A DNA stretch of 37,962 nucleotides, taken from NCBI GenBank assembly GCA_013213905.1, contig JABSSQ010000103.1, forward strand, positions 1 to 37,962. Reading direction: 5' to 3'. Position 1 is the stretch's first letter. Each line of letters begins with the position of its first letter. Positions 20,270 to 37,340 of the stretch are shown here, piece after piece. Below the pieces are notes generated by a model. It saw nothing but the letters and a program-made list of their open reading frames with translations. It searched no databases and had not been told where the DNA came from. The position numbers and the translations under genes were made by a program. The stretch comes from Verrucomicrobiales bacterium (GTDB taxonomy: Bacteria > Verrucomicrobiota > Verrucomicrobiia > Verrucomicrobiales > DEV007).

Positions 20270-23134
20270 TTAGAAGCTTTGAGGTGTCCTCCTAATTGGT
20301 GGTTTGTCATTCTTATTTCCGCGCTGATCTCTTCCTCGCTTCGGCTCGGCAGAGGGATCGAAGTTGGGATTAGGGACTGTAGTACGGGGCGCGCCGGTGC
20401 TCGACTGCCAGTTGTGGAGGGCTTCGAGCAGGGTTTTTGCCTGGCCAGGCGCGGCTTCGGCGAGATTGCGGGTTTCGCCGGGATCAGTAGAGAGGTCGTA
20501 GATTTCAAAGGATTGCGTTTCGAACTGTTCGATCACTTTCCAATCACCCATTCTCATCGCACTGCTGGGGCCGCCACCGCCGATGTAACTTGGGAAGTGC
20601 CAGAATACACGGTCTCGATCGAGGCGAGTGCTCGCCCCGGAGAGGAGTGGGGCTAGGCTTTCACCATCGAGAGGGTGGTCGGCGTGTGGTTTGAGGCCTG
20701 CGAGATCGAGCAGCGTTGGGTAGATATCCATTGAGAGCATGGGTTCTGAGGTCATACCCTGCTTGACTCCCGGGCCCCAGATGGCAGTGGGCACCCGGAT
20801 TCCGCCTTCGTAGAGAGTGCCTTTACCCCCGGCGAGTGGTTCGATGTAGCGCCTTGTGCCGCCGTTGTCGGAGTGAAAAATAACGATGGTGTTATTGGCT
20901 TGCCCTTGGTCGCGCAATGCATCGATGACGCGGCCTACATTGGAATCTGTTGCGTCCACCGTGGCCGCATAGTCAGGATCTTGTGCACCCTTTTTGCGAT
21001 ACTTTTCTACCAGCTCCGGCTTTGGCTCAAAGGGGGAATGCACGGCGTGATAGGCCATGTAGAGAAAGAAGGGCTGGTTCTTCTGGTCTGACATCCATTC
21101 GATTCCGGCCGTGGTCAGTTCATCGGTGAGATACTGGCCTTCGTCATTGAAAAAGCGATCTTTGTCGAAGCCCACATCGCGAGGTTGTTTGAAGATATCG
21201 AAGCCCTGGCCAGTGGGTGTGGTCGGGCCGTCTCGTCCCCTACCAAGATTCCACATGCCGAACATGCCGGTGGCGTAGCCACCTGACTTGAGAGCTTCCG
21301 CAATGGTGACAGATTCGGTGGCGAGTTCGGCGTTGCTCTGAGCGGCGAGAACCTTGTGATGAGGAGATCCCGGGGTGTGGCGGTCATCGACCACGGTGTA
21401 GACGCCGTGCCGTGGCGGGTATTGTCCGCTCATCAGGCAGGCCCGGGTGGGGGCACAGTTCGGGGCGCTGGCGTAGGCGTTGGTGAAGATCATGCCCTGG
21501 CGGGCCATTTCATCGGTACGTGGCGTTTCGATGATCTGGTTGCCGGTGAATCCCATGGCGTTCCATCCCATGTCGTCGATGAGAAAGAGAACAAAGTTAG
21601 GGCGATCCGGGAGAGGGGTGGGGACTTGAGTGGGGGAGGTTGCGGGAGCACTTGGGGTGTTGTTGGTGCCGTCATTGTCAGGCGGATTGCGGCGCGTCTT
21701 GTCCGCCTCTGCGGGCTTCGCCTTTCCCGATTTCATCCTCTCGACTTCATCTTTCGAGAGGCGCTGATCACCGTTGAGGTCTCCGCGCTGAAAGAACTTC
21801 CTGAATTGTGCGGCCAGTTCTTCGGCAGAGATACTGCCGCTTCTATCCTTGTCGAGTTCGCTGGCATGCTGTTTGACGAAACCACCCAGGGGTGATTTGA
21901 TGCCACCTGCAGATTGGCTCTCAACGGGGGTGATATCCCCGCTCTTGTCTACGTCGTAAGCGAGGAAGACGCGGCGCGCCTCCTGCATCAGTTCTCCCTG
22001 GTAGTCGACGACGCCGTCTTCGTTCGCATCGAGTTCGGCTGCGTGAACGGCCAACCAGGCTTGGCGGGGGCCGTTGTCAGCGGCAGGGCGAATTTCTTCC
22101 TTCCCTGGGGCGCCGGGTTTGCTTTTTCCTCTCTGGCCGCCTTTGCCCTTCTTTCCTCCAGGCGGGCGGTCGCTCCCTTTGCCGCCGTTGTTGGCTTGTC
22201 GCTGGTAGGACTCTTTCATGGCATTGCCTGCAGGATCGAAGAACTCAAAATCAGCCCCGGTGTCCGTGACCTCGTAGTTGATTTGGTGTGTCTCGCCACG
22301 CACCTTATATTCAAGGGAATAGCCCTCGGCCAAAGTTCCACTGAATCCGGTGATCTCGGCTCCGCGCAGTGGTTGAAGGAAGGGGCGGACGCCCTGAGCA
22401 CGAGGACGATCCTCGAGATCTGCGGCCCCGCGGAAGTAGGCCATCATGTAGGGATTCTCCAGATTGCCGATGTAGCGGTAGATTCCTTCGTCGTCGAAGT
22501 AGCCATGGCATTCGTCGAGTGGTTTGTCATTGGCAGGATCTTCGAGGTAGACCGGGTGACCATCCAGGCCGAACGCGATGGGATTGCCCTTGCTGGCGAT
22601 TCCCTCGAGATGAGAAGGTGCAATGTGATAGTGATAGTCATCAGCACGCCCGCAGTGGCCGCCCCATTCATCGAGTTCTCCTCCGAGGTAGGCGTCTTTG
22701 CCACTCTGGGTGAGAGCGTGAAAGATGGGGATGCCGTTGACGGCAATGGCGATCGGGCCGAGCAGAGTAAGCGCCTGGGGTTCTTCGAGGACGGTTGGAT
22801 TGAGGGGGAGGGCGAATCGATTGTCCCCGACGTAGGCGTGTGGCAAAGGAACCTGCTGCTGCCAGGCGGTGATCCCGCGCATCATGTCGTGATCCGGGAG
22901 TCCGTTGGATTCGATGTAGAGAAAGTCGTCGTCCCAGGATAGGCCGAGGCGGTTCTTGAATGGCTCGAATGCAGCCACCGTGGCCGGGATCGGACCTCCG
23001 GGATTGTCGAAGGTGCGTTCACCCGGAAACTCTGCGGCATAGGGGGAGAGATTGGGGGCGATCGCGGCAATTGTGAGAGGGATTGCGACCGCGGTGAGGA
23101 GGAGTGAGGCAAAAGCGAAAATAAGGGTCTTCAT
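20270..23134 (-). CDS. Secreted fusion: YHYH domain, four EF-hand loops, degenerate sulfatase domain
   Basis: A 954-residue exported protein. Residues about 1-35 are a signal sequence. A YHYH domain spans about 55-300, with the motif DDYHYH at 165-170. A Lys/Gly-rich linker (about 313-346) follows, then four EF-hand loops beginning at Asp369, Asp394, Asp428 and Asp452; the first lacks Glu at position 12. After a Pro/Thr linker a type I sulfatase domain starts at about 510: Asp520/Asp521, the formylglycine site C560-A-P-T-R564, His699, Asp756/Asn757 and Lys771 are present. The usual GKWHLG is GMWNLG at about 626-631, so the catalytic Lys and His are Met and Asn. It may bind rather than cleave sulfate esters. 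It follows the small accessory gene by 20 bases. Confidence 0.88.
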   Translation of the reverse strand: MKTLIFAFASLLLTAVAIPLTIAAIAPNLSPYAAEFPGERTFDNPGGPIPATVAAFEPFKNRLGLSWDDDFLYIESNGLPDHDMMRGITAWQQQVPLPHAYVGDNRFALPLNPTVLEEPQALTLLGPIAIAVNGIPIFHALTQSGKDAYLGGELDEWGGHCGRADDYHYHIAPSHLEGIASKGNPIAFGLDGHPVYLEDPANDKPLDECHGYFDDEGIYRYIGNLENPYMMAYFRGAADLEDRPRAQGVRPFLQPLRGAEITGFSGTLAEGYSLEYKVRGETHQINYEVTDTGADFEFFDPAGNAMKESYQRQANNGGKGSDRPPGGKKGKGGQRGKSKPGAPGKEEIRPAADNGPRQAWLAVHAAELDANEDGVVDYQGELMQEARRVFLAYDVDKSGDITPVESQSAGGIKSPLGGFVKQHASELDKDRSGSISAEELAAQFRKFFQRGDLNGDQRLSKDEVERMKSGKAKPAEADKTRRNPPDNDGTNNTPSAPATSPTQVPTPLPDRPNFVLFLIDDMGWNAMGFTGNQIIETPRTDEMARQGMIFTNAYASAPNCAPTRACLMSGQYPPRHGVYTVVDDRHTPGSPHHKVLAAQSNAELATESVTIAEALKSGGYATGMFGMWNLGRGRDGPTTPTGQGFDIFKQPRDVGFDKDRFFNDEGQYLTDELTTAGIEWMSDQKNQPFFLYMAYHAVHSPFEPKPELVEKYRKKGAQDPDYAATVDATDSNVGRVIDALRDQGQANNTIVIFHSDNGGTRRYIEPLAGGKGTLYEGGIRVPTAIWGPGVKQGMTSEPMLSMDIYPTLLDLAGLKPHADHPLDGESLAPLLSGASTRLDRDRVFWHFPSYIGGGGPSSAMRMGDWKVIEQFETQSFEIYDLSTDPGETRNLAEAAPGQAKTLLEALHNWQSSTGAPRTTVPNPNFDPSAEPKRGRDQRGNKNDKPPIRRTPQSF

Positions 23135-23154: not shown

Positions 23155-23892
23155 TCAGCGGTTTGAGGAGTCAATGTGACCACGTGGCCAGTCAGCAGGT
23201 GGCATGGGAGCGCCGTTCGGTGGGCTTTCGATGGTGGTTCGAAAGAGGACGGTATTGTCGAGTGCGAGGTCACCGGTCCAGATCCATTGGGCGCCTTCGA
23301 AGTCGTTTTCGTAGAACGGACTCTTGGGGCTGACCGCTTCTTCGGTGTGCTCCGTGGCGTTCTCCCAGGCAGAATCATCAAAATCAACTGCGAACCAGTT
23401 TTCTGGAATCGGTTTGTGCGTGGTTTCGGGGTTCTCCATGTCCCGGTTGATCGGGCCATGAAAGAAGCTCTTCGCTCTCCAGGACGCATTGCTCACTGTG
23501 CCATCGCTGAACTTGAGGATGAATCCGCCGTCTCCAAGGTTGGAGTTGTTGTATTCGAGGCCCGTGTCAAGATCGGCATTGTCTTTCGCCATCACCGCAA
23601 TGGTCATGGGGTATTCGGGCAGGATGTCGACGGAGACGACGTTGTGAGGAATGAATGAAATCGAGTCGACCATGACCAGATTTCCATTGATGTAGAGTTT
23701 GAACCAGTTATCAGCATAGACGTTGGCTCTGAGTGTGTCGTCGATCCTGGGCTTGTTGACGCGAGGGCCCGAGCCTCCTTTGCCTCCCTTTGCTTTTTCT
23801 TTGCGGGGAGGGCGCTCATTTTGGGCTTCGAGAGAGGCTAGCGGAGAACAGGCCAACGCGAGGCAGGTTATTAGAGTGGGGAGTTTCTTCAT
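23155..23892 (-). CDS. Small secreted galactose-binding-like accessory protein
   Basis: A 245-residue protein. The ATG at 23892 (MKKLPTL) was preferred over 23925 because a signal peptide begins there and ends near SLEAQ. A short Lys/Gly-rich region (about 28-43) precedes a beta-rich domain. Two stretches resemble jelly-roll sugar-binding modules: NWFKLYINGNLVMVD early on, and VDFDDSAWENATEHTEEAV followed by WIWTGDLALDNTVLFRTTIE later. The NxxVSVDILPEYPMTIAVMAKD segment is distinctive. I know no function. It lies between two sulfatase genes, 79 bases after the first and 20 before the second, and is likely co-transcribed with them as a secreted partner. Confidence 0.75.
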   Translation of the reverse strand: MKKLPTLITCLALACSPLASLEAQNERPPRKEKAKGGKGGSGPRVNKPRIDDTLRANVYADNWFKLYINGNLVMVDSISFIPHNVVSVDILPEYPMTIAVMAKDNADLDTGLEYNNSNLGDGGFILKFSDGTVSNASWRAKSFFHGPINRDMENPETTHKPIPENWFAVDFDDSAWENATEHTEEAVSPKSPFYENDFEGAQWIWTGDLALDNTVLFRTTIESPPNGAPMPPADWPRGHIDSSNR

Positions 23893-23971: not shown

Positions 23972-25432
23972 TCAGTGCTTTGGCTTCTTGTTAGCTCTTC
24001 CCTTTCCTCCTTTGCCTCCTCCACCTTTCTTCTTGTTGTTGGATCCCCGGATATCAGGGGCGTTGTCAGGATCAAATTCCGGATTGGGGGAGGGAAACTG
24101 AGCGTTCACCTTTTCGAGGTAGGCATCCATGCGGGACTCGAGATTGGCAGCGATGTCAGGTTGGGTCGTGGCCAGGTTTCGGGATTCGCCGATGTCTTCG
24201 CTGATGTTGAACAGCTTCAGTGAGCCGTTTTCATAGTGGCGAATCAATTTGTAGTCGCCGAGGAAGAGAGCGGTGTGAGGGGAGTCACCCTGGTAGTGAG
24301 GAAAGTGAAAAACGAGTTCCTTTGAAGGGCGTTGGACGGGGGTATTACCTCCTTCGAACAGATGGGTGATGGAGCCGCCTTCGATGTTCTCGGGCAGCGG
24401 TTCCGTGACGCCGGCGAGTTCGCAAAAGGTATTGAACAGATCAAAGCCGACGACTCGATCATGGCACCAGGAGTCGGGGGCGATTCCCGGGCCTCGCACG
24501 ATGAAAGGCACTCGAATACCGGCCTCCCAGACATCCCCTTTGCCGCCTTGAAGCAGTCCGCGCACTCCACCTCCGTTGTCGGACATGTAGACGACGTAGG
24601 TGTTGTCCCGCAGTCCCAGTTCGTCGAGGCGCTCTAACAAAAGACCTATCCCGCGATCGAGGTCTTCGGTGATGGCGGCACGGCCGATCTCTTTTTCGTT
24701 CCCTTTTGGATTGAGTTGGCTGTACTTCTCAACCAGCGCTTTCGTTGCATTCTGCGGGTAGTGAAGCGCGTGATAGTAGCAGGTAATGAAGAAAGGCTTG
24801 CCGGCATCGTGACTTTTCTCCATGAAGGCAGCGGCGCGTTTGCCCATCCCGAAAATATCGACTGGATTGGGTTCGACGAACGGGGCGGCATCCTGGTTCC
24901 CGGTTTCGCCGTCGCTTTCGTGGTATCCATGAGATTCAGGCCCGCCCCCTGCGAGGTGCCATTTTCCATAAAGAGCTGTCGCGTATCCGGCGCGTTGCAG
25001 GATTTCTCCAATGGTGACTTCTTCTTCGGGGATGCGCTTATTGATGGTTGGGGAGATCAATCTAAATCCATCCTCAGCTGTCATAGTAGGCGCTGCCTTT
25101 GTCCAATTGAGCTGCGCCGGGCTCTTGCCTGTCTGCAGGCTGATTCGAGTGGGAGAACAAACCGGTGCCGGAGAATAGGCCGCGGAGAATCGTCGCCCTT
25201 CTGATGCGAGGCGCGCGAGATTGGGCGTGTCGATGTAGCGATGAGCGGATCCCGGGATGTCGGGGTGCATCTGACAGGACAGCCCGTTCCAGCTTTGGTC
25301 GTCTGCAAGCAGGAAGAGGATGTTTGGGTGATCGTCAGAGTGAGCGATATTGATCGATAGCAAAACCAGGGCAAAAATGGGCAGGGATGGGCGCATGGGG
25401 CGTTGCATCATATAGCGAAGCATGGACTTCAT
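23972..25432 (-). CDS. Secreted type I sulfatase with Lys/Gly-rich C-terminal tail
   Basis: A 486-residue protein. The start at 25432 (or the nearby Met at 25423) was chosen because a signal peptide ending near IAHSDD follows; the frame is open 123 codons further upstream but that part is low-complexity and non-conserved. Catalytic motifs are complete: Asp44/Asp45, the formylglycine site C92-S-P-T-R96, GKWHLAGGG near 167, HALHYP for the distal His, SDNGGG, and a Lys in GGKGDVWEAGIR. It hydrolyses a sulfate ester after Cys92 is oxidised by a maturase not in this window. The last 23 residues form a basic Lys/Gly tail like that of its two partners. Confidence 0.93.
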   Translation of the reverse strand: MKSMLRYMMQRPMRPSLPIFALVLLSINIAHSDDHPNILFLLADDQSWNGLSCQMHPDIPGSAHRYIDTPNLARLASEGRRFSAAYSPAPVCSPTRISLQTGKSPAQLNWTKAAPTMTAEDGFRLISPTINKRIPEEEVTIGEILQRAGYATALYGKWHLAGGGPESHGYHESDGETGNQDAAPFVEPNPVDIFGMGKRAAAFMEKSHDAGKPFFITCYYHALHYPQNATKALVEKYSQLNPKGNEKEIGRAAITEDLDRGIGLLLERLDELGLRDNTYVVYMSDNGGGVRGLLQGGKGDVWEAGIRVPFIVRGPGIAPDSWCHDRVVGFDLFNTFCELAGVTEPLPENIEGGSITHLFEGGNTPVQRPSKELVFHFPHYQGDSPHTALFLGDYKLIRHYENGSLKLFNISEDIGESRNLATTQPDIAANLESRMDAYLEKVNAQFPSPNPEFDPDNAPDIRGSNNKKKGGGGKGGKGRANKKPKH

Positions 25433-30034: not shown

Positions 30035-32602
30035 TCAGGGCTTCTGGAGAAGATTGAGGTCGTGGATGGACCAGTAGAGTTTGTGGCTGCCGGTCTGAGT
30101 GATCTTTACAAATTTGACCTCCTGTTCCGGAAACTCGACGACGAGTTTTGGTGTCTTTCCGTCGCGCAGCTTGATGGGCTTAGTCCACTTCTTTCCATTG
30201 AGCGAGAATTCAATCTTGCAGCCGCGAGGGTAGTCTCCCCGGGATTTGGCTGAGTCGGCGATTAATCCGACGACTGTCTCTGGTTGAGGAAGCTCCAGCT
30301 GGAACCACATCTCTGGCTCCATGCTTTGGCCAGTGGTGAAACGTGTCGCGAGATCTCCGTCGATAGCGTTTTTGGGATCGCCCGAACTGTGCTGATGACT
30401 CGCGGTCACTTTCCAGTCGCTCCGGTCGTCAAAAATTTGAGGCACACTGGCGTGGAGTTCGGATTCGGTCCAGGCGGTGGTGCGGTCGGCATTGGCTTTC
30501 CGGATCTGCTTCACTTCCTCCTCGGTCACAAAACCGAGATCGTTGCCGAAGCTGTTCTTGATGTAAGAAACGACGGACGCGACCCACTGGTCACCGTTGG
30601 AAGCCATCGAGATCATCTCTCCGGGGTAGCTCTTGCCTTCGACGGGGCCGGTGAGGCCGTGAAGAACCACCTTGGGAGCGAGCTCACGGTGGCCGGCGAT
30701 GATCTTTGAACCGACCAGGGAAGGCGCGAGACGCAAGTCGTCGCCTCCGGGGATGGGCATGCCTTTGCCGTCTCCACCGTGGCAGGCGAAACAGAGAGCT
30801 TCATAGACGATTTTGCCTTCTTTGTAGAGGGTGAGTTGTTCAGGGGTGAGCTTCTCGGGAGCCGCCTGACCGCCCTTGAGCATCTGATTACCGATCGCAT
30901 TGACTCCGGCGCTGTCGCTGCCCGCTATGGTCGTGGCGGTAAATTCCTTGTGATCCGGAAAATCGAGGAACTTGGCAGTAAGCATGGACTGGATCACCAC
31001 TTCGGGATCGGTGTCGGCGGCCATGGCCTTGAAATCGGTTTCGAAATCTTCGTTTCCGGTTTTGTGGAGGGTTTCTCCGGCGCGGATGGCGGCGCGGCGG
31101 ACGGAGGCGTGTTCGTCCTTGAGCTTTTCCCGGAGAAATGTCGGAGTGAGCGTGCCAAGGCCTTCCAGGGTCCAGATGGCGTGCATGCGGGCGAGGTCGC
31201 TCTCGCTTTCGCGGGCCATCTTCACGAGGGCCGAGGACACCGAGGTGTCGCCGTGCAAGATGATCAACTTCTGCGCATTGTCCCGCCACCAGCCGTTGGG
31301 ATGCTCAAGGTGAGCCACGAGCTGCTGAGGTGTTTCGTCCAGCATGTTCGGCCGTGGTCCGGGCTCGTAGTCGTCGTGGACGAGGCGGTAAATGCGGCCG
31401 CGCTGGATGTTCTTGGCAAAGCCATAGTCGTCGATCACGCCGCGCAGGTAGCTGCCGGGCTTGGTCCAGTTGCCTTGCTGGATGATGCCGCGATACATGT
31501 CGACAATGTAGAGGGTTCCGTCGGGACCGGTCTGGGTGTGAACGGCACGGAAGTTAGGGTCGGTGGAGCGGATGAACTCGCGACCGGGATCGGCGTTGCT
31601 CAGGTAGGTGATCCCATCGCGAACTTCGACCTTGGAGCGGCGAATGAGTCGACCCACGGGCTCGGAAAAGAACAGATCACCCTTGAGTTCGTCGGGCAGG
31701 CGGTCTCCGCGAAAGATGCCCTCACCACAGGTGGCGGTGAAGTGATTGAGGGTTTGATCCTCCGGACGGAAGCGCTTCGTCCCGCCCTGGACATCAGGGA
31801 TGCCGACAAGGGGAAGAACCTCTCGATAATCGGCCGGAAACTGGTCCGGCACATTGAAGGCGCCGTAAACGATGGGCTGCTGGAAGTTCAGCGGACCGCG
31901 TTCTCCGCCGGCATTGACAAACCAGGGCTTGCCGTGGTCGTCCTGACAGAGGCCCCACTGGCCGCCGTTGGAAGCGGTGGGCTCTTTGAGAGCGAGGCCG
32001 CCGGGATTGTGGCGCAGGCGGTAGGCGTTGTAGGTGGTGTAGATCCAGTTGTCCATCGACCAGATCAGGCCGCTGGGTTGGTGCTCCATGTTGCCGCCGC
32101 GAGGGCCGCCTTCATACCAGAGTGTTTTCTCATCGGCAACGCCGTCACCGTCAGTGTCGCGATACCAGAAAATATCGAGCGTATTGGTCTCGTTGATGAG
32201 AGCCCCGTTATGGAGTGGTAGGACCATGCGAGGCAGCAGCAGGTTGTCGGCAAAGATAGTGTGCTTGTCCATCCTCCCGTCGCCGTTAGTGTCTTCATGA
32301 AGGGAGACGCGACCTTTGCTTTCCTGTTCGCCAGTAGCGTCAGCATCCTGCATGTAGGTGCTCATTTCGACGACATACATGCGACCGTTTCCGTCAAAAG
32401 CGCAGGCAACGGGTTCGGTGATCTGTGGTTCAGTCAGGACCGGCTCGAGGCGGTATCCTTCCGGAAGCTCGAAGGTCGCGAGACTGTCTTCGACCGAAAG
32501 ATAGGGGAGGGTTCCGGTTGGCTCATAAATCTTCACATCGGTCGCAAAAAGGGAGGCTGCAGAGGAGGCGGAAAGAAGGAGGGAAAGTAGGAGTGCTTTC
32601 AT
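30035..32602 (-). CDS. PVC-type c-type cytochrome with beta-propeller, HEAT-like and discoidin-like domains
   Basis: An 855-residue exported protein; the start could also be ATG 32611, three codons earlier. A signal peptide (about 1-20) precedes a long beta-propeller region (about 40-405) with VACAFDGNGRMYVVEMSTYM and several DxNGDG-type calcium-like loops. Helical HEAT-like repeats occupy about 425-545. A single heme-binding C-F-A-C-H motif lies at about 604-608, with Met ligands likely in EMISMAS, and a discoidin/F5-8-type sugar-binding region ends the protein (about 730-855). This architecture is characteristic of Planctomycetota and Verrucomicrobiota membrane-bound or periplasmic dehydrogenase-like proteins of unknown substrate. 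Divergent from a sulfatase gene across 195 bases. Confidence 0.92.
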   Translation of the reverse strand: MKALLLSLLLSASSAASLFATDVKIYEPTGTLPYLSVEDSLATFELPEGYRLEPVLTEPQITEPVACAFDGNGRMYVVEMSTYMQDADATGEQESKGRVSLHEDTNGDGRMDKHTIFADNLLLPRMVLPLHNGALINETNTLDIFWYRDTDGDGVADEKTLWYEGGPRGGNMEHQPSGLIWSMDNWIYTTYNAYRLRHNPGGLALKEPTASNGGQWGLCQDDHGKPWFVNAGGERGPLNFQQPIVYGAFNVPDQFPADYREVLPLVGIPDVQGGTKRFRPEDQTLNHFTATCGEGIFRGDRLPDELKGDLFFSEPVGRLIRRSKVEVRDGITYLSNADPGREFIRSTDPNFRAVHTQTGPDGTLYIVDMYRGIIQQGNWTKPGSYLRGVIDDYGFAKNIQRGRIYRLVHDDYEPGPRPNMLDETPQQLVAHLEHPNGWWRDNAQKLIILHGDTSVSSALVKMARESESDLARMHAIWTLEGLGTLTPTFLREKLKDEHASVRRAAIRAGETLHKTGNEDFETDFKAMAADTDPEVVIQSMLTAKFLDFPDHKEFTATTIAGSDSAGVNAIGNQMLKGGQAAPEKLTPEQLTLYKEGKIVYEALCFACHGGDGKGMPIPGGDDLRLAPSLVGSKIIAGHRELAPKVVLHGLTGPVEGKSYPGEMISMASNGDQWVASVVSYIKNSFGNDLGFVTEEEVKQIRKANADRTTAWTESELHASVPQIFDDRSDWKVTASHQHSSGDPKNAIDGDLATRFTTGQSMEPEMWFQLELPQPETVVGLIADSAKSRGDYPRGCKIEFSLNGKKWTKPIKLRDGKTPKLVVEFPEQEVKFVKITQTGSHKLYWSIHDLNLLQKP

Positions 32603-32797
32603 GGGTATCATTTAAATCAAAGCGCCGCTGAGGAGGGGCTTCGGAGTGGGAGCGGTGAACCTACGACCGAAGAAGTGATCTAAAACCGCATATTGCGTGG
32701 AAAATCTTTTGATTTGCGCCAAGTGTGGCGTGATTCCGCAGAATTTGAGCACTCGTAAGTTTGGGTTCTGGGATAGAAGATATGACCCTCTTTAAAG

Positions 32798-34147
32798 ATG
32801 ACCTCAAAATCCTTGATTCTCTTGATTGCTCTTGTTTTCTGCGCCATTGCCAGCCGCGCGGAGTCTCCCAACATTATTCTGATCCTGACTGATGATCAGG
32901 GTTGGAGTCAGCGTTCCGGACTAATGGATCCAGAGGTCGCGGATTCCGGTTCAGACTATCTTGAGACTCCAGCGATGGACCGGATCGCGAATGAGGGAAT
33001 GCGGTTTACCAGTGGCTATTCCCCGGCTCCGCTTTGCACCCCGACCCGACGCAGCATTCTTTGCGGGACCAGCGCGGCTCGGTCGGGATCTGAATTTGAG
33101 AGTGTCTGGGTTCCGGCCGAACACCTGACCATCCCGAGGGCCCTGAAGAAAGCGAATGCGGACTACCAGTGCGCGCACTTCGGTAAATGGGGAGAGAAGA
33201 TGATCTCATCTCCCGAGGAATGCGGCTACGACGTCAGTGACGGACATACCGGAAACGTGACTGGCGGGATGGCTGACAAGATGGAGCCAGCCCATATCGT
33301 TGCTGACCCGAAGCGGACTGATTCGGTGACGGACCGCACCATTGATTTCATGCGCCAGCAGGCAAAAGCGGGGAAGCCCTTTTACGCGCAGGTGAGCTAT
33401 TACGCGGTCCACCTCAGGATCGAGTTGCTGGAGGCATCGCTGAAGAAGTACCAGGATAAAGGGGCTCCGGACCGCGCGTATTCACCCGGTTGGGTTGGAA
33501 TGCTCGAGGAGATGGACACTGCGATCGGGCGGATTCTCGATGAGGTCGATGCACTGGGCATTTCTGAAAACACCTTCGTCATTTTCACCACGGACAATGG
33601 CGGACGCGGAGTGGTGCCCGGCGGTGATCCGGAGAGTGCGGCGCCAAACGTGCCTTTGTCAGGGGCGAAACACTCGTTGCTGGAAGGTGGCATTCGGGTG
33701 CCGTTCCTGGTTCGTGGTCCTTCCATTGAAGCGGGTTCGGTCTGCCGGGTTCCCGTGGTCGGATACGATTTCCTGCCGACTTTCTATGATCTGGCGGGAG
33801 GTACCGGTGAGCTTTCCGCGGAAGTGGATGGTGGCAGTTTTGCTACGTTGCTGGAAAAGCCGGAAGCAGGTCCGGTGAAACGTGCCGTAGAGGGAATCGT
33901 GTTTTCCCGCCCACGGCAAGGAAACGCGGCAATTCGTGATGGTAACTGGAAGCTCCTGGCTGAAATCGATAGTGAACGCCAGATACAGTCCGTCCAGCTT
34001 TTCAACGTGAACAAGGATATTGCCGAGTCGAAGGACTTATCCTCGAAACAACAAGAGAAGACGAAAGAATTAAGGAGCCGGTTGGAATCTTTTCTCGAGT
34101 CTCATGAGGATCCGTCACCGACGATGAAAAAGCGCAAGGGGCCCTAG
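32798..34147 (+). CDS. Secreted type I sulfatase, GKWG variant
   Basis: A 449-residue protein with a signal peptide ending near ASRAES. Metal ligands Asp32/Asp33 and the formylglycine motif C80-T-P-T-R84 are clear, and TTDNGG plus GAKHSLLEGGIRVPF give the later metal and Lys residues. The GKWHLG motif reads GKWGEK, so the His expected two residues after the Lys is Gly; the segment HFGKWGEKMISSPEECGYDVSDG resembles a recognised PVC sulfatase subgroup with HFGKWG. The substrate is unknown. Upstream is CTCTTTAAAG with no Shine-Dalgarno. Confidence 0.9.
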   Translation: MTSKSLILLIALVFCAIASRAESPNIILILTDDQGWSQRSGLMDPEVADSGSDYLETPAMDRIANEGMRFTSGYSPAPLCTPTRRSILCGTSAARSGSEFESVWVPAEHLTIPRALKKANADYQCAHFGKWGEKMISSPEECGYDVSDGHTGNVTGGMADKMEPAHIVADPKRTDSVTDRTIDFMRQQAKAGKPFYAQVSYYAVHLRIELLEASLKKYQDKGAPDRAYSPGWVGMLEEMDTAIGRILDEVDALGISENTFVIFTTDNGGRGVVPGGDPESAAPNVPLSGAKHSLLEGGIRVPFLVRGPSIEAGSVCRVPVVGYDFLPTFYDLAGGTGELSAEVDGGSFATLLEKPEAGPVKRAVEGIVFSRPRQGNAAIRDGNWKLLAEIDSERQIQSVQLFNVNKDIAESKDLSSKQQEKTKELRSRLESFLESHEDPSPTMKKRKGP

Positions 34148-35763: not shown

Positions 35764-35783
35764 CCGAATCCCAATTCATGGAA

Positions 35784-35816
35784 GGGTGTCGACAGAGCTT
35801 GTCGGCACCCTTTTTT
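35784..35816 (+). terminator. Rho-independent terminator after the Tat oxidoreductase
   Basis: An 11-bp stem (35784-35794 with 35800-35810, one G-U pair), a five-base GAGCT loop and six T. It lies 21 bases after the stop codon and 19 bases before the next sulfatase start, so that sulfatase needs its own promoter or read-through. Confidence 0.93.
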
Positions 35817-35834
35817 AATGTCCAGATCCCGGCT

Positions 35835-37340
35835 ATGAAACTGACTCAGCTATTGCCCACTCTATTGGTTTTCGTTTTGTCCTTCTTCTCAGCGGATGCC
35901 GGTGACAGACCCAATGTGATCGTGATCCTGGCGGATGATCTTGGATACGGAGATGTCGGGGCCTACAATTCCGAGTCGCAAATCGCAACTCCCGCGATGG
36001 ACCGATTGGCAGCTGAGGGCATGCGTTTCACTGACGCGCACTCTCCTTCTGCGGTCTGCACCCCGACACGCTACGGGCTCCTGACTGGTCGCTACTGCTG
36101 GCGCACCCGGTTGAAGAAGGGAGTGCTGTGGGGGATTGATCCGGCGTTGATGGATCCTGAAAGAGCGACGGTTGCAGACCTCTTTAAGAAGGCTGGGTAC
36201 GCAACGGCCTGCATCGGCAAATGGCACCTGGGCTTCGATTTTTATGATGCCGAAGGGGAGTTGCTACCCAACAATCGTGAGTATGAACGAACAGCGGGTG
36301 CAGATCGTGTCGACTATAGCCGTCGTATCGGGAAGAGCCCCCAGGAATACGGGTTCGATCAAAGCTTTGTGATCACGGGGTCTCTGAATATGTTTCCCTA
36401 CACTTACATCGAGGGAGACCGAATTGTTGAGTCGGCGAGTGAATTCAAGCCACGCACCCCTCACAATATCACGATCATCAGTGGAGGGCCGATGGCACCG
36501 GATTTTGACTTTGAGGCGGTGGTCGACGTTTTCGCTGAGAAGGCGGAAGCTTTTGTCAGATCTTCAGTGAAGAACGGAGATCCATTCTTCCTCTACTATC
36601 CACTGACGGCGCCGCACAAACCGGTGCTTCCAGCGAAGCGTTTTCAGGGAAAATCCGGCTTTGGCATCTACGGAGATTTCATTCTGCAGGTCGACGATGT
36701 GGTGGCACGCATCGATCAGGTGCTGGAAGAGACTGGTAGACAAGAGAACACGCTGATCGTGGTGACGAGCGACAACGGGTCCTTCATGTATCGCCTGTCC
36801 GATGAAGCGCCGGATCACCTCGATGATTTCACAGCGACTGGTTATCGTGCCGAAAACCATCAGTCGAATTATCACTGGAGAGGAACGAAGGCCGACATCT
36901 ACGAGGCAGGTCACCGGGTTCCTATGCTGGTGCGTTGGCCCGCAGTAGTGGAGGCCGGAACAGTGAGCGAGGAGACTGTGACGCTGACAGATTGGTATCG
37001 AACCTTTGCTGCAATGCTTTCACAGGAGGTCAGAGAGAACGAAGCAGAAGATAGTATCTCGCTGATTCCGTTACTAACGGCGGAAGGGGAATGGCAACGA
37101 CCGCCAGTGGTACATCACTCTTTCAGCGGCATGTTTGCGATTCGCGATGGGGACTGGAAGCTAATCGCGGGCAACGGATCCGGGGGGCGCGAGAATCCGA
37201 AAGGTAAAGCCTTCGAAAGGCCCTACCAGCTATACAATCTCAAGCAGGATCCTTCAGAAACGAAGAACCTGATCGAGCAGCACCCTGAAATCGCGGAACG
37301 ACTTGAGGGGGATCTGGAACAAATTCGGGGAGTGGAGTAG
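35835..37340 (+). CDS. Secreted type I sulfatase (arylsulfatase-like)
   Basis: A 501-residue protein with a signal peptide ending near FFSADAGD. The start at 35835 was chosen over 35778 since the latter would fall within the terminator sequence of the previous gene and lacks a signal peptide. All motifs are intact: Asp34/Asp35 (ILADDLGYGDVG), formylglycine site C75-T-P-T-R79, GKWHLGFDF, TAPHKP for the distal His, TSDNGS, and GTKADIYEAGHRVPM. It is the largest simple sulfatase here and resembles arylsulfatase A-like enzymes. Its stop lies 7 bases from the convergent gene that follows. Confidence 0.94.
   Translation: MKLTQLLPTLLVFVLSFFSADAGDRPNVIVILADDLGYGDVGAYNSESQIATPAMDRLAAEGMRFTDAHSPSAVCTPTRYGLLTGRYCWRTRLKKGVLWGIDPALMDPERATVADLFKKAGYATACIGKWHLGFDFYDAEGELLPNNREYERTAGADRVDYSRRIGKSPQEYGFDQSFVITGSLNMFPYTYIEGDRIVESASEFKPRTPHNITIISGGPMAPDFDFEAVVDVFAEKAEAFVRSSVKNGDPFFLYYPLTAPHKPVLPAKRFQGKSGFGIYGDFILQVDDVVARIDQVLEETGRQENTLIVVTSDNGSFMYRLSDEAPDHLDDFTATGYRAENHQSNYHWRGTKADIYEAGHRVPMLVRWPAVVEAGTVSEETVTLTDWYRTFAAMLSQEVRENEAEDSISLIPLLTAEGEWQRPPVVHHSFSGMFAIRDGDWKLIAGNGSGGRENPKGKAFERPYQLYNLKQDPSETKNLIEQHPEIAERLEGDLEQIRGVE

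Follow-up and report, generated by a model that had tools for sequence, protein, structure and literature searches.

A sulfatase-family clade with Met/Asn in place of the Lys/His pair, found within a putatively secreted YHYH-associated gene module of Verrucomicrobiota

Genes and domains at the locus

The window, meaning the whole 37,962-nucleotide stretch of a Verrucomicrobiales genome that we analyzed, carries the genes P and X and a fusion gene, which lie in this order on the minus strand. S denotes the sulfatase-like domain of the fusion protein and the clade to which it belongs, and MxN and KxH denote the residues at the two positions discussed below. The features are as follows.

23972 to 25432, minus strand: P, an ordinary S1 sulfatase and the partner of S, its CSPTR and GKWHL motifs both intact; likely ATG at 25432, the longer reading frame from 25801 being an in-frame extension
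23155 to 23892, minus strand: X, predicted secreted protein of about 245 aa without a match in Pfam or NCBIfam, separated by 20 bp from the fusion gene downstream
20270 to 23134, minus strand: fusion gene, 954 aa with an ATG start, in the order signal peptide, YHYH, EF hands, S (MxN sulfatase-like)
23057 to 23134, minus strand: predicted N-terminal signal peptide or hydrophobic anchor, residues 1–26, judged by eye from the sequence
about 22190 to 23056, minus strand: YHYH domain, residues 27–315, from Pfam PF14240 and alignment A4
22625 to 22636, minus strand: YHYH motif, residues 167–170
21725 to 22054, minus strand: EF-hand region, residues 361–470, with loops at 369, 394, 428 and 452
20345 to 21610, minus strand: S domain of the S1-type sulfatase fold family with MxN, residues 509–930
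21443 to 21457, minus strand: formylglycine motif CAPTR, residues 560–564
21356 to 21397, minus strand: clade-specific loop TVVDDRHTPGSPHH, residues 580–593, at the position of the S1_16 Trp79 pocket wall
21242 to 21259, minus strand: GMWNLG, residues 626–631, with Lys replaced by Met627 and His by Asn629

The reading frame of the fusion gene is uninterrupted over its whole length, and GC3 is level along its domains except in a short C-terminal tail. Pfam models matched the protein above their curated cut-offs: YHYH (PF14240) at residues 107–198 (E 3.4e-10, 40.6 bits against a cut-off of 25), EF-hand_1 (E 2.7e-10) and EF-hand_5 at about residues 384–466, and Sulfatase (PF00884) at residues 512–813 (E 1.4e-62). 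The unusual order of these domains in one open reading frame, which an earlier note on this DNA had described, is real. On re-reading, the positions given there for the motifs and loops were correct (DDYHYH at residues 165–170, the four EF loops, Cys560 and GMWNLG), and the secretion it proposed agrees with the signal peptide visible by eye. By the criterion of 12-residue loops with an acidic position 12, the EF-hand region has two canonical loops, those at 394 and 428, and two near-canonical ones, the loop at 369 having Glu at position 13 instead of 12 and that at 452 having Gln in place of Gly at position 6. In relatives, homologous EF regions separate S from YHYH or from P.

The X family has 24 relatives within the same module. 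No match to X was found by a profile search of the PDB, and none of its relatives was found in viral contigs. The predicted structure was too poor for use (mean pLDDT 52, pTM 0.55), and its Foldseek matches were not significant, the best being a weak N-domain resemblance to the alpha-L-rhamnosidase 3w5m (E 0.11); X is possibly a carbohydrate-binding-like beta-sandwich by this model. A scan around the locus revealed no promoter-like sites, and terminator-like sites only at chance level. Elsewhere in the window, positions 30035–32611 encode a haem-binding protein of the PVC type that combines DUF7133, HEAT repeats and cytochrome c and ends in an F5/8 type C domain, and two more sulfatases lie downstream at 32798–34147 and 35778–37340, together with GFO/IDH/MocA oxidoreductases. 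Such neighborhoods are common in sulfatase-rich Verrucomicrobiota.

Conservation of the Met/Asn pair in clade S

Formylglycine sulfatases hold the sulfate and the nucleophile with a lysine (LysA) and a histidine (HisA). Of the features that mark the S1 superfamily, S has the sulfatase profile over the domain and the C/S-X-P/A-X-R maturation motif, and lacks the Lys/His of GKWHLG. Relatives were collected by searching GTDB contigs and 57 related genomes with the protein; those from this first search, at 57–65% identity, all carried Met and Asn. A profile (A1) built from seven S relatives matched strongly, once per genome, in 23 of the 387 genomes of the order, and further matches came from several more families in the phylum. 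Once the rule was fixed, a class-wide scan added six unseen members (L120–L125), all with MxN. M627 and N629 are thus present in 32/32 genomes with clade S (25/25 tree members, L070 and 6/6 held-out members), each with one copy. The replacement of Lys and His reported in the earlier note is right, and a change private to this protein or a sequencing error, which that note had allowed for, is excluded. Below a clear score gap (515 versus 457 bits), all 18 of the next-best matches examined had Lys/His; L087 and L092, considered as members at 444–446 bits, were rejected because they have KxH, and were assigned to the outgroup. A pattern-limited scan of GTDB contigs, the one scan that reached other phyla, gave no MxN member beyond Verrucomicrobiota.

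The median pairwise identity within clade S is only 60%. D520, D521, C560, P562, R564, H699, D756, N757 and K771 are invariant in the clade, 6/6 held-out members included, which bears out the earlier statement that Cys560 and the metal ligands are retained; the Cys, Pro and Arg of CAPTR were the same in 24/24 alignable members and 6/6 held-out ones. In the maximum-likelihood tree, clade S forms one side of a branch with support of 100/100, recovered in 200/200 bootstrap trees checked, and sits within the KxH sulfatases. One origin of MxN suffices to explain this single well-supported branch, and S is, as judged from the tree, descended from a KxH sulfatase. The clade has a loop of its own, V582-D583-x-R585-H586-x-P588-G589 (consensus VDxRHxPGxP), which is invariant or nearly so in 25 members and absent from KxH relatives. 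The same holds for R632, G633, K658, D659, H696 and R761, and D583, R585, R632, K658, D659, H696 and R761 are new clade-invariant polar residues little used in the KxH outgroups. H586, H592 and H593 vary, with Tyr, Gln or Met, in some held-out members and so are not essential. From these alignments, the active site of S looks as if it had been rebuilt and then kept under selection, rather than decaying.

The best match of S was the S1_16 kappa-carrageenan sulfatase AMOR_S1_16A (PDB 9fo1; 306 bits, E 4e-90, residues 509–929), with which it shares the formylglycine motif, the metal ligands and the H/K general-acid pair (PMC11760155). In contrast, the S1_16 signature residues Trp79, which walls the sugar pocket, His125 and His149 (AMOR numbering; PMC11760155) are all absent, being replaced by V581, N629 and Q650, and S further differs in Met/Asn instead of Lys/His, in the new loop 580–593 and in its fusion to YHYH and EF hands.

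Gene linkage, fusions and the YHYH domain

Among the 387 genomes scanned, S was accompanied by YHYH in 22 of 23 genomes (Fisher p 7e-14) and by P in 20 of 23 (Fisher p 4e-15), shared ancestry inflating both p-values; P was missing from G050, G075 and G079. The genes were also close together, S and YHYH being less than 20 kb apart in 19 of the 22 genomes with both, and S and P in 18 of 20. P and YHYH also co-occurred in the absence of S, as in the P-YHYH-X loci L094–L097. Two further genomes carry the YHYH-EF-sulfatase combination as one reading frame: L116 in exactly this form, and L114 with X preceding it. P, S and YHYH-X are adjoining genes in L088, L108, L110, L112 and L115, P is fused to EF and S in L093 and L100–L102, an X-YHYH-EF reading frame is followed by an S gene in L117, and a YHYH-X fusion is also among the arrangements. 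This variety of fusions supports the module independently of the Fisher p-values. A search of relatives for conservation, as the earlier note had proposed, thus found the MxN pair to be invariant but not the exact domain order, since YHYH and EF-sulfatase are separate genes in same-genus relatives. Absence of the fusion from close relatives, which that note took as counting against its proposal, is partly what we observed: in the same-genus genome G004 the parts are separate and about 13 kb apart, though their association persists. The substitution is firmer, and the exact fusion weaker, than had been claimed.

The AU test rejected a single clade of the fused YHYH-S forms (p 0.006, the group having been named after the tree was seen), so the fusion arose at least twice or was repeatedly undone. 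The four-part module of P, X, YHYH and S is well supported as conserved, which suggests a real, undescribed extracellular system and not a one-off broken enzyme. Latescibacterota and Gemmatimonadota MAGs (L036, L038–L040) have YHYH beside X-like and sulfatase genes, L038 having close copies of P. In one genome group a histidine kinase/response regulator pair flanks the module, and in another group the flanking gene encodes an ECF-type sigma factor (L099:6049-8242; L096:7251-9370; L110:13873-14406). The signaling role that the earlier note suggested for the fusion protein is unsupported, the regulators near some loci being separate genes.

In the YHYH domain, the equivalents of His163 and Asp168 and the first YHYH motif were invariant in 32/32 relatives (alignment A4). 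The family here has two motifs; in the window (YRYI) and in seven relatives the second reads YRY[VI], and the remaining 24 keep it intact. This degenerate motif is another loss of His, itself conserved, in the same protein as MxN. A structure predicted from a 5-row alignment was too poor for use (mean pLDDT 35), and a profile search of the PDB with YHYH gave no match. For the YHYH proteins of jumbo-phage tails, a role as zinc-dependent hydrolases acting against peptidoglycan has been predicted (PMC7824862). The window domain belongs to the same Pfam family as these proteins (PF14240), and the His and Asp residues conserved in it are consistent with the metal site predicted there (PMC7824862); unlike the tail-associated phage proteins, it accompanies sulfatases and X in predicted secreted bacterial proteins, and unlike the usual YHYH domain, its subgroup has lost one of the two motifs. 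YHYH is also fused to a PhoD-like metallophosphoesterase (L036:5692-8301) and, in L102, L106 and L115, to a PEBP domain (PF01161), no PEBP gene being seen among the window proteins scanned. A divergent YHYH subgroup occurs in very large open frames of up to about 5,350 aa (G010:C69:35488-36285, G058:C11, G136:C27). Our literature search found no paper naming YHYH together with sulfatase.

Possible function of S

The earlier note had regarded the retention of Cys in the absence of Lys/His as hard to explain. However, the phosphonate monoester hydrolases/phosphodiesterases, RlPMH among them, do likewise: they keep the formylglycine nucleophile and have the same two positions replaced as in S, by Tyr and Thr/Asp (PMC5488252). 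In the sulfatase SpAS1, every His103 mutant loses at least tenfold sulfatase activity and gains phosphoesterase activity (PMC5488252). The parallel to S is drawn by analogy, since Met/Asn is not Tyr/Thr/Asp. S itself was rejected as a member of the phosphonate monoester hydrolases by these residues and by its score of 82.5 bits against the cut-off of 900 of the PehA model NF045661.

We give a probability of roughly 0.5 to the reading that S is a hydrolase that uses formylglycine, its active site reworked and its specificity shifted off ordinary sulfate monoesters; it would belong to a secreted module and act on the same substrate as P. This reading is favored because S keeps the maturation motif and the leaving-group acid. 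Maturation of Cys560 is possible in the producer, whose genome encodes proteins of the FGE family (PF03781). In S, the sulfate-gripping Lys and the formylglycine-flanking His have been permanently exchanged for Met and Asn, along with the gain of the new loop. In the proposed mechanism, FGE would convert Cys560 to formylglycine, the metal and the formylglycine hydrate would attack the substrate, and H699/K771 would protonate the leaving group. The retuned pocket would probably not act on a plain sulfate monoester, and the likeliest target may be an altered ester, for instance a phosphodiester or phosphonate, in the extracellular glycan that P desulfates. YHYH, with its predicted metal site, and X may position or process this shared glycan, and the EF hands may form a calcium-stabilized spacer between catalytic domains.

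The earlier view that the protein is not an ordinary enzyme is plausible, whereas a sulfate-binding or signaling protein is not the best reading. A weaker contender, though one to be taken seriously, is that S has become a pseudoenzyme: it would bind sulfate or sulfated glycans, target or regulate P and YHYH, and keep its metal site for binding. Both Lys and His are gone, and in choline sulfatase the Lys102Leu mutant has no detectable activity (a cost of more than 10.7 kcal/mol) and His104Ala costs 4.4 kcal/mol (PMC5870055); by analogy with the Lys-to-Leu cost, a loss of all catalysis by S is credible. The frequent fusion of S directly behind an intact KxH sulfatase (L093, L100, L101, L102) is a common layout of an enzyme with a binding module, the loci that have P-YHYH-X without S make S look accessory, and some of the retained residues would be expected in a binding protein too, since they also bind sulfate. 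However, neither Cys560 with its complete maturation motif nor the general-acid pair varies or drifts in 32 genomes, and formylglycine has no evident use in a binding domain.

It is unlikely that S is an ordinary carbohydrate sulfatase in which loop 582–593, R632 and R761 stand in for Lys/His. In favor of this, the solved structures closest to S belong to carbohydrate sulfatases (S1_16), the clade has many conserved basic residues that are new, and P is a neighboring sulfatase, but the S1_16 signature is missing, and no sulfatase for sulfate monoesters came up in our literature search that has replacements at both positions. Although the assembly behind the window is fragmented (535 contigs), an assembly or sequencing artefact of the metagenome is highly improbable: for the motif it is refuted by the identical MxN in 32 independently assembled genomes, and for the fusion it is opposed by the recurrence in L114 and L116 and by an open, in-frame gene with even GC3 outside its tail. 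Carrying the reworked-hydrolase reading further, we hold it tentatively, at a little under even odds, that S represents the founding clade of a new subfamily of formylglycine hydrolases, which would have a Met/Asn site and a reaction other than sulfate-monoester hydrolysis, in an undescribed secreted YHYH-X-P-S module for glycan processing, part of which (P, YHYH, X) also occurs in Latescibacterota.

What seems to be new, in a family that is itself known, is a sulfatase clade with a replaced catalytic pair inside an undescribed secreted module. The repeated fusions place the uncharacterized YHYH domain in putatively secreted sulfatase systems. To our knowledge, this is the first strong functional context for YHYH, a domain so far considered chiefly in connection with phage tails. 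Possession of the Lys/His pair is taken to define a sulfatase, and all S proteins are annotated as sulfatases in genomes. A deep, invariant clade that has the formylglycine machinery but not Lys/His offers a natural test of whether this pair sets sulfate specificity, as the SpAS1 mutants suggest.
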